Below, in pieces: positions 5,535 through 8,118 of a stretch of 64,000 nt of DNA. Made by a program: the position numbers and the translations under genes. The number at the start of each line of letters is the position of its first letter. Positions within the stretch are counted from its first letter, which is position 1. The notes beneath the pieces were generated by a model, which was not told the DNA's origin, searched no databases, and saw nothing but the letters and a program-made list of their open reading frames with translations. The stretch comes from Blastococcus sp. VKM Ac-2987 (GTDB lineage Bacteria; Actinomycetota; Actinomycetes; Mycobacteriales; Geodermatophilaceae): assembly GCF_026967805.1 (NCBI RefSeq), contig NZ_JAPVBG010000002.1, positions 62,001-126,000 of the forward strand, written 5' to 3'.

Positions 5535-5720
5535 CCCGGCGACGGCGAGGTCGAGCTCTGCGCCACGATCGGCGCGCCCCCACCGGTCCGTGACCTACCG
5601 TGGCCAGGCTCCTCCCCGGTGGGAGGGAGCCGCGGTGGTCCACCGCCGCAGCCGGCCATCCCGCGCGGGTCCGCGGACGGGGGTCGGGCTACCCGTCCGC
5701 CGCCGTCCGGGGGAGGCCCG

Positions 5721-6284
5721 ATGATGGATCAGCTGGGGATCGACTGGCAGCGGGCCGGGCTGGTCGTCCTGTCCACCGTCGCCATGTACCTGCTGCTGGT
5801 GCTCTGCGTCCGGCTGGTGGGCCAGCGCAGCCTCGCCACCATGTCGAGCTTCGACCTCGGATGCGTCGTGGCGCTGGGCGCCGTGGTGGGCCGGACCGCA
5901 CTGCTGCTCGATCCCACCCTGGGCGTCGGGGTGGTCGCTCTGGGGACGCTGTTCGCGACGCAGGCGATCCTCTCCCTGCTCCGCCGGAACCGGTGGGCCG
6001 ACCGGCTGATGAACCGCCGCCCGGTGCTGCTCATGGCCGGGGACACCCCGCTGCGGGAGAACATGCGGGCCGCCCACGTCGCGGAGGACGAGCTGCGGCA
6101 GAAGCTGCGGCTGGCCGGGATCCGCAACCTCGCCGAGGTGCGCTGCGTCGTCCTCGAGCGCACCGGGGCGGTGAGCGTGGTGCGCCGGTCGGAGCCGCTG
6201 GACCCGTGGCTGTTCTCCGACGTGCCCGGCGCCGAGCGCCTCTGCGGGGCAGCGGAGCCCGACGCCCGGCGGACGTCGTCCTGA
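5721..6284 (+). CDS. DUF421 (YetF-like) membrane protein
   Basis: A 187-residue protein of the DUF421/YetF family. Three N-terminal membrane helices (about 12-100) contain LVGQRSLATMSSFDL, the signature region of the family. A small cytoplasmic alpha/beta domain follows (RRPVLLMAGDTPLRENM, then LRLAGIRNLAEVRCVVLERTG), ending in a polar tail. The Bacillus relatives influence spore and membrane phenotypes, but no biochemical activity is established. GGGAGG lies 4 bp before the tandem ATGs at 5721 and 5724. A -10-like TACCGT near 5596 could supply a leader of about 110 nt. It converges on the selenoprotein candidate, leaving only 3 bp between the two stop codons. Confidence 0.88.
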   Translation: MMDQLGIDWQRAGLVVLSTVAMYLLLVLCVRLVGQRSLATMSSFDLGCVVALGAVVGRTALLLDPTLGVGVVALGTLFATQAILSLLRRNRWADRLMNRRPVLLMAGDTPLRENMRAAHVAEDELRQKLRLAGIRNLAEVRCVVLERTGAVSVVRRSEPLDPWLFSDVPGAERLCGAAEPDARRTSS

Positions 6285-6287
6285 CCG

Positions 6288-6944
6288 CTACCGCTCCGGC
6301 GGGTGCTCGGCGCGCCACTCGTCGAAGGCGTCGAGGAACGACACCGCCATCCGGTGCTCGGCGCGCACCTCCTCCCGGTCCCGGTCGTCGCGCATCCGGT
6401 CGGTCAGCGCCAGGGTGTTGAACTTGATGGCGCGGAAGTAGGGGATGAACGAGCCGGGCGTGAAGGCCCGCTTCGACGGCCGGGGCTCGACGCCCTCCAG
6501 CGCCCACGGCGCGGGCTCCGGCAGCGCCGGGAGCCCCAGCCCCTCCAGGGCGGTCAGGAAGGGCTCGTCGTCGGTGCGGTCGGTGAAGTCCCGGGAGAGC
6601 TCGCGGAAGACCTCGGTGCCGTCCGGGGCGACGGCGACCACCAGCGGCCGGAAGATCGAGGCGTCCTCGTCCCAGGCGCCCAGGGGCCTGGCCAGCCGGG
6701 CGCCGTCGGGATCGCTCGCCCAGCGGAACGGGACGTGCCAGGTGCGGTCGAAGGCCAGCTGGACCTCCGGGGGGTCGACCGACGCGAGGACGACCTCGGT
6801 GCCCGCTGCGGCGAGCCGGGACAGTGACCGGGCCAGGCGGACCGCCTGGGCGCAGCAGTAGGGCTACCAGTCGCCCCGCAGGCCGATCAGGAGCAGGGCC
6901 GCGCGGTCGTCGGACCGCAGCGCGAGCAGGTCGGCGGTGTCCAT
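6288..6944 (-). CDS. Redoxin / peroxiredoxin-like protein with in-frame UAG at the catalytic position (probable UAG-encoded selenocysteine)
   Basis: Read from ATG 6944, the frame gives 26 codons, then UAG (6864-6866), then 191 codons to a final UAG. Around the first UAG the protein reads LLLIGLRGDW-x-PYCCAQAVRL. This is the thioredoxin-fold active site W-C-P-Y-C of AhpC/TSA-like redoxins with the first, nucleophilic residue encoded by UAG. All 26 upstream codons end in G or C and the downstream frame is intact over 191 codons, so it does not look decayed. Geodermatophilaceae are known to use UAG for selenocysteine, and a SECIS-like hairpin lies at 6833-6849. The product would be a 218-residue selenoenzyme reducing peroxides or disulfides. 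A -10 TACGGT six bases before the ATG indicates a leaderless mRNA. The alternative is a pseudogene or base error. Confidence 0.8.
6833..6849 (-). other. SECIS-like hairpin inside the redoxin gene
   Basis: On the minus strand CCAGGC and GCCTGG form a stem around GGTCC, and the closing G-C pair makes it a 7-bp stem with a GUC loop. The GGUC begins 20 nt after the UAG. In E. coli fdhF the comparable GGUC loop, contacted by SelB, begins about 18 nt after the UGA. The position and apical sequence fit a bacterial SECIS, but this is a judgement by eye. Confidence 0.6.
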
Positions 6945-7023: not shown

Positions 7024-8118
7024 GTGACCCCCACGGTGAGCCGGCGCCAGGTCCTCGGCTTCCGGGTGCGCGCCCAGCAGCTCGACCGCGCGGCGGGCAC
7101 CGTCGCCGACACCGCGGTGCTCGACCTGGGCGTGCAGGACACCGGCGCGGACGGCGGCCGCTGGGCGCTGGCGCTGCGCGGCGTGGACGTCGCGGCGCTG
7201 CCGGACGACGCACTGGCCCTCGCGTGGACCCTGCGCGGCGCCCCCCACCTGTACCGCCGCGCCGACATCCCCGGCGTCGCCGCCGCCACGCAGCCGTTCT
7301 CCGAGGCGGACGCCGCGAAGCGGGTCTTCGACGCCGCCAAGCCGCTCCACGCCGCGGGGATCCCCGTCCTCACCGCCCTCGACGAGGTGGCGGCGGCCCT
7401 GCGCTCGATCGTCACCGGGCCGATGGTCAAGGGCGACGTGTCCGGCCGGCTCAACGAGGTGCTGCCAGCCCCCTACCTGCGCGAGTGCCGGCCCTGCAAC
7501 GCCGTCCACGTCCACGAGCAGCCGTTCCGGCTGGCCGCCCTGCGCGCCGGCCTGGAGCTGGAGGAGGGCACGTCGCCGCCGGTGCTGCGGCCCGTTCCCG
7601 GTCCCGGGCCGGCGGCGGAGGTGCCGGCCGGGCTCGACGTGGTCCGCGGCTACCTGCGGCTGCTCGGCCCGGCCACCCGCCAGCACGTCGCCGGTTACCT
7701 GGACGCGCCGGTCAAGGACGTGGCGGCGCACTGGCCGGCAGACGCGGCGGAGGTGACCGTCGACGGCGAGCGGCGCTGGGTCCTGGCCGGCGACGTCGAC
7801 CGGCTGACCGTCGACCCCGCGCCGGTCACCCGGCTGCTGGGCCCGTTCGACCTCTTCCTGCAGGCGCGCGACCGCGCGCTGGTCGTGCCGGACGGCGCCC
7901 GCGCCAAGGAGCTGTGGCGGGTGCTCGGCCGGCCCGGGGGTGTGCTGGCCGACGGCGAGGTCGTCGGCACGTGGCGGGCGCGGAAGGCCCGGGACAGCGT
8001 CTCGGTGGCCGTGGAGCTGTGGGCCCCGGCGGACCGCGCCGCCCTCCACGAGCAGGCCGAGCGGCTGGCCGCGTTCCGCGGGCTGCGGCTGGGCGCGGTC
8101 GAGGTGACCGGGCCGTAG
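7024..8118 (+). CDS. Winged-helix DNA glycosylase-like protein (HTH_42, AlkZ/AlkX family)
   Basis: A 364-residue protein of the YcaQ/AlkZ family, which unhooks interstrand crosslinks or removes bulky alkylated bases. It has tandem winged-helix segments. The N-terminal RAQQLDR holds Q-x-D at the position of the catalytic QxQ/QxD motif; QxD is the AlkX (AlkZ2) variant. Also visible are AWTLRGAPHLYRRAD, the lysine-rich TGPMVKGDVSGRL and a C-terminal LLGPFDLFLQARDR, all typical of the family. Translation probably starts at GTG 7024 on a leaderless mRNA. It is divergent from the selenoprotein candidate, suggesting a joint oxidative or alkylation stress response. The stop codon is TAG. Confidence 0.88.
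   Translation: MTPTVSRRQVLGFRVRAQQLDRAAGTVADTAVLDLGVQDTGADGGRWALALRGVDVAALPDDALALAWTLRGAPHLYRRADIPGVAAATQPFSEADAAKRVFDAAKPLHAAGIPVLTALDEVAAALRSIVTGPMVKGDVSGRLNEVLPAPYLRECRPCNAVHVHEQPFRLAALRAGLELEEGTSPPVLRPVPGPGPAAEVPAGLDVVRGYLRLLGPATRQHVAGYLDAPVKDVAAHWPADAAEVTVDGERRWVLAGDVDRLTVDPAPVTRLLGPFDLFLQARDRALVVPDGARAKELWRVLGRPGGVLADGEVVGTWRARKARDSVSVAVELWAPADRAALHEQAERLAAFRGLRLGAVEVTGP

Follow-up and report, generated by a model that had tools for sequence, protein, structure and literature searches.

A redoxin gene of Blastococcus sp. VKM Ac-2987 with an in-frame UAG very probably read as selenocysteine

The redoxin gene and its product

The window, which is the whole stretch of 64,000 nucleotides that was analysed (contig NZ_JAPVBG010000002.1, positions 62,001 to 126,000), belongs to a genome of 4613437 bases in 12 contigs (99.73% complete) and carries at 6288..6944 on the minus strand the gene of a putative selenoprotein, a redoxin of the AhpC/TSA, peroxiredoxin-like UxxC type with 218 residues and selenocysteine (Sec) as residue 27. 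Read from 6944 to 6288, the frame comprised 219 triplets with an ATG start, an internal UAG as codon 27 (6866–6864, minus strand) and a terminal UAG (6290–6288, minus strand); UAG has two roles in this gene, as an internal and as the last codon. A sequence-only reading had described a 218-codon frame broken by UAG alone at the nucleophile position of a redoxin motif, and both points were confirmed (W-[UAG]-P-Y-C, in extended form W-U-P-Y-C-C), as were the G or C in the third base of all 26 codons upstream of the UAG and the stop-free run of 191 codons downstream of it.

A gene for a DUF421/YetF-type protein (window 5619–6284, plus strand) converges on the redoxin gene, and a gene for an AlkZ-like DNA glycosylase (window 7024–8118, plus strand) diverges from it. 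When 20 named loci were compared with flanks of 3 kb at E 1e-8, the DUF421 gene was kept beside the redoxin gene in three and the AlkZ-like gene in none, so the gene context gave no functional hint.

With the UAG read as a residue, the AhpC-TSA domain (PF00578) matched residues 17–109, spanning the Sec site (E 2.2e-11, 44.2 bits against a cut-off of 26); an NCBIfam search of the product assigned no family. The AlphaFold model (15 homologues in the alignment) reached a mean pLDDT of 86.4, with a helix (28–39) that begins directly after residue 27 and a C-terminal pair of long helices (163–181 and 187–213). Peroxiredoxins were the best PDB fold matches of this model (TM about 0.5 by query length) and made up nearly all of the 50 fold matches listed; when solved structures were searched by sequence, three weak matches appeared, two to protein disulfide isomerases and one to a Bcp-type thiol peroxidase. 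The signature of peroxidases is P-x-x-x-T, and none was visible ahead of the W-U-P-Y-C-C motif, by which measure a role as disulfide reductase would be as likely as one as peroxidase. The product is best described as a predicted peroxiredoxin-like thiol:disulfide oxidoreductase with Sec27 as nucleophile, in which Sec27 would attack the substrate and Cys30 or Cys31 would resolve the resulting bond.

The hairpin behind the UAG and the Sec machinery

Directly behind the UAG lies a hairpin that was absent from the description in the sequence-only reading (6833..6849, minus strand), with a 6-bp stem (6849–6844 paired with 6838–6833) and the loop GGUCC (6843–6839). With the initial base of the stop codon as position 1, positions 18–23 pair with 29–34. 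The register was set from the window sequence and the set of rows was picked after inspection: pairing was counted in 43 of the 61 homologous loci that were read (28 UAG and 15 UGA rows of PYCC type), with 15 PYCN-type UGA rows, two frameshifted rows and one TGC row excluded. All six stem pairs were intact in 43/43 rows and three of them showed double changes, namely 22–30 (G-C, G-U, C-G and U-A), 21–31 (G-C, G-U and A-U) and 23–29 (C-G, U-G and U-A), and loop bases 25–26 were GU in all 23 distinct hairpin sequences. The paired fraction was 1.0 in these 23 sequences, a value that none of 5000 shuffles reached (their mean was 0.88), and it dropped to 0.10–0.50 when the register was slid by 1–3 bases. 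The same six-pair register does not fit the 15 PYCN-type UGA rows, which counts against the reading of UAG as Sec; other small hairpins appeared in the single-sequence folds of those PYCN-type rows that were folded.

Within the window, 262 TAG triplets on both strands were compared, and a 6-bp stem with a GU loop within 3 bases of this spacing was found behind the redoxin UAG only; composition shuffles of the sequence behind this UAG gave rise to such a hairpin in 31 of 20000 cases. Folded alone, the 67 bases that start with the UAG did no better than shuffles (z −1.14; 26 of 200 shuffles as good), so the evidence for the hairpin is the comparison across homologues. Synonymous variation was likewise reduced at the hairpin, with a mean entropy of 0.29 (12 columns) against 0.56 (86 columns elsewhere; one-sided p 0.011, 28 intact copies). 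The GU loop is similar to that of E. coli fdhF, and the hairpin as a whole has the position and pairing of a putative bacterial SECIS-type element directly behind the UAG.

The machinery that the sequence-only reading had proposed to look for was found in the genome. A tRNA-Sec gene with anticodon CUA matched RF01852 over its full length, scoring 67.7 bits where the gathering score is 47, and this was the only match in an Rfam scan of the 3092-base tRNA locus; the second RF01852 match above cut-off in the genome was a tRNA-Ser(UGA) with 49.5 bits. The gene is adjoined on one side by selA, with selB beside selA, and on the other side selD follows at a distance of about 700 bases; each scored above its NCBIfam cut-off (selB 284.4, selA 414.3 and selD 387.5 bits). 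By the route established for UGA in bacteria, SerRS would charge tRNA-Sec(CUA) with Ser, SelA would use selenophosphate made by SelD to turn the Ser-tRNA into Sec-tRNA, and the Sec-tRNA would be brought to the UAG by SelB while it is bound to the hairpin that closely follows. UAG codons lacking a hairpin, such as the last codon of the redoxin gene, would still terminate, so that the hairpin would decide which of the two UAG codons is Sec and which is a stop.

Homologues and the Sec codon inside and outside the family

As a class-level search at E 1e-15 yielded no match outside the genus (none in 392 other genomes), an alignment was used to search the phylum, and 39 of 396 Actinomycetota genomes, source included, matched at E 1e-12. 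The 41 other matches listed in this search held one TGA (29 matches), two TGA (1) or no stop (11). Of 200 genomes in the family of G532, 14 matched, two of them already known from the phylum search; the five genomes of the family of G526 held no homologue besides that of G526 itself. The Sec-site codon was read in 31 outside homologues (the 19 best-scoring of the 41 phylum matches and 12 new ones; the more distant loci L090–L149 are excluded from the count) and was TGA in 30 and TGC in one. In 16 of the 38 matching genomes a tRNA-Sec was searched for; 15 had it, with 16 copies in all, every one with anticodon UCA. The codon and tRNA-Sec counts take in one of the 11 stop-free phylum matches, the TGC homologue of G672, and this genome was the only one of the 16 with no tRNA-Sec match. 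Three of the 12 new loci (L276, L277 and L280) carry, in addition to the TGA at the Sec site, one more in-frame stop within the stretch that matched. As far as sequence can tell, the redoxin gene shares its descent with UGA-type selenoproteins found elsewhere in Actinomycetota, and because UGA stands at the site in the best-scoring homologues from other families, the derivation of the UAG from a Cys codon, which the sequence-only reading had assumed, is improbable.

Release factors compete with any decoding of a stop codon, and on this ground the internal UAG might mostly terminate, leaving a 26-residue product, the remainder being made through readthrough at a low level that inserts an ordinary amino acid. 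This explanation was judged very unlikely in view of a Sec machinery with the matching CUA anticodon, the covariation in the hairpin and the UGA that stands in place of UAG in the outside homologues, where the tested genomes carry UCA tRNA-Sec.

Inside Geodermatophilaceae, 112 genomes were searched, of which 38 had a match at E 0.001. The redoxin gene was present in 30 of them, source included, and codon 27 was TAG in 30/30 copies, with Cys or TGA in none; in the eight other genomes the best match was weak (at most 28.1 bits), with a TGA inside one of the eight and no stop in the rest. The homologue alignment that the sequence-only reading had called for thus gave UAG, not Cys, in the 15 aligned homologues and in all 30 family copies. 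Identity to the query was 72–90% among the 27 full-length family relatives (83% for the homologue in G009), and the 14 aligned relatives were 73–91% identical in protein. Apart from the UAG, 28 of the 30 copies were intact, and their terminal stops were TAG in 14 and TGA in 14. Behind the UAG the frame was under constraint, with dN of 0.07–0.20 against dS of 0.31–0.68 and dN < dS in six of six comparisons.

The other two copies, L037 (in G104) and L038 (in G028, Blastococcus sp. CT_GayMR19), are frameshifted just behind the UAG, which counts against the reading of UAG as Sec. They lack one nucleotide at CDS base 95, within a CCC run that lies at the foot of the SECIS-type hairpin, and their remaining frame is open. 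They belong to different genera and neither is among the 12 nearest of the other, yet the one-base deletion is identical; at the corresponding position in the opposite arm of the hairpin the run is the shorter one. The deletion may thus stem from a quasipalindrome hot spot, or else from an assembly error.

These two copies, together with the patchy occurrence of the gene (30/112), which also counts against Sec, favour the alternative of a decaying Cys redoxin in which the UAG is a nonsense mutation or an error of sequencing. Scattered frame damage of the kind that would mark a decaying gene was looked for and not found, the two exceptions sharing their single deletion, and the claim that the gene is not decaying held. 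With the UAG common to all 30 copies, the relatives as similar as stated and the frame behind the UAG open and constrained (dN < dS), decay was rejected as extremely improbable, short of a single error common to all 30 records.

A tRNA-Sec was found in 108 of the 112 family genomes and in all 96 of the good ones, and selB was above cut-off in 106 of 112. Among 110 tRNA-Sec copies the anticodon given by ARAGORN was CUA in 102 and UCA in eight, seven of the latter lying in genera g5–g7 and the eighth being a second copy in G058. An unrooted SelA tree of 23 rows, all from inside the family (46 tRNA loci were tried, and rows with over 200 aligned residues were kept), separated the UCA rows (3) from the CUA rows (20) by one branch with 100/100 support; the outside genomes tested fall on the UCA side by anticodon. 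That UAG might be a pyrrolysine codon and the CUA tRNA a tRNA-Pyl, which is the label ARAGORN gave it, was rejected as having next to no probability, since this tRNA matches the tRNA-Sec model end to end with no other Rfam match above threshold and sits between selA and selD, sister genera carry UCA tRNA-Sec on the same model, and outside homologues have UGA or, once, Cys at the site, consistent with Sec chemistry.

What the DNA itself establishes is an open frame, a set of machinery genes, a CUA anticodon, a conserved UAG and a covarying hairpin. The redoxin as a UAG selenoprotein of Geodermatophilaceae, the reading first put forward from the sequence, is supported by the CUA tRNA-Sec, by selA, selB and selD, by the UAG in 30/30 copies and by the intact homologues, and residue 27, the nucleophile, is very probably a selenocysteine encoded by UAG.

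Other candidate selenoproteins of the family were searched for as well. UGSC proteins matched in 54 of 112 genomes, and of the 95 matches 72 held one TAG and 23 no stop; the source genome has two, both with TAG-G-S-C, and a single-sequence fold gave a hairpin behind each. With the formate dehydrogenase profile TIGR01591, 97 of 112 genomes matched at E 1e-100, one of them above cut-off; the FDH-like gene of the source genome has no internal stop, which counts against the reading of UAG as Sec, and no UAG formate dehydrogenase was confirmed among these matches. Genus g7 has FDH-like matches with one TGA inside (G071:C41:3-1655, G073:C52:1555-3207 and G074:C118:2-1249); the three tRNA-Sec copies found in the genus are all UCA, with none found in G071. 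The simplest account of the codons is that the Sec codons shifted together with the tRNA anticodon in one move inside Geodermatophilaceae, presumably from UGA to UAG.

G058, a genome of the Geodermatophilus group, carries besides its CUA copy a second tRNA-Sec with anticodon UCA (81.8 bits, positions 1173–1263 of locus L273, which lies on contig C17 of 69133 bases). Beside it lies a CMD-family (AhpD-like) frame (1579–2154) with an in-frame TGA in C-F-Y-[TGA]-M-E-S-H (CxxU); the other family matches listed for this AhpD were 30–40% identical and had no stop. The stretch with the UCA tRNA-Sec and the AhpD gene has 59–65% GC, and the adjoining sequence of higher GC appeared transposase-like by eye. 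The contig may be contamination. A scenario in which a single concerted UGA to UAG move in Geodermatophilaceae (anticodon, redoxin and UGSC) was followed by the arrival of a low-GC island with a UGA AhpD and tRNA-Sec(UCA) in the Geodermatophilus group, in G058 at least, perhaps with two Sec codons in one cell and one SelB, is plausible but somewhat less likely than not.

Significance and comparison with known systems

A gene caller using the standard code would truncate the redoxin at residue 26, and the selenoprotein is therefore easily overlooked. Its UGA, UAG and Cys homologues with the matching anticodons are natural material on how the Sec codon moves between stops, and a genome that truly holds both types of tRNA-Sec, as G058 may, would allow a direct test of whether the anticodon alone sets the choice of tRNA by SelB at each codon.

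The statement of the sequence-only reading that UAG-programmed selenoprotein synthesis had been reported in Geodermatophilus and Blastococcus agrees with the accessible parts of PMC5330540 and PMC5133445: the former cites Mukai et al. 2016 for formate dehydrogenases and UGSC proteins of Geodermatophilaceae that use UAG, and the latter names UAG as the codon for Sec in Blastococcus. UAG is also named as a natural Sec codon in the accessible part of PMC10778597, and the accessible part of a 2026 review (PMC13188914) treats bacterial Sec with UGA and includes UGSC and a UxxS form of the AhpC/TSA family. In titles and abstract openings, with subscription papers mostly outside the scope, no published account was recognised of a genome with both Sec codons or of the codon change in Geodermatophilaceae.

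The Prx-like thiol:disulfide oxidoreductase selenoproteins (pfam00578) of PMC9312934 share with the redoxin the PF00578 domain and the UxxC motif; in the accessible part of that source they are described without mention of UAG. With the UAG selenoproteins of Mukai et al. 2016, as cited in PMC5330540 and PMC5133445, the source genome has in common the CUA tRNA-Sec, the UAG at the Sec site, the bacterial family and UGSC proteins with UAG; the proteins of that study are, by the citation in PMC5330540, formate dehydrogenases and UGSC proteins, whereas the gene studied here encodes a redoxin. The closest counterpart, described in PMC5330540 itself, is an AhpC with Sec-TAG and bSECIS in Blastococcus saxobsidens DD2, another species under the same genus name, which agrees in AhpC type, TAG at Sec, bacterial SECIS and CUA tRNA and is, on comparison by description and not by sequence, probably the orthologue. 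The redoxin is a further UAG selenoprotein of an already described kind; in the literature examined, as far as accessible, the UGA homologues, the anticodon census and a Geodermatophilus-group genome with both types of tRNA-Sec were not encountered.
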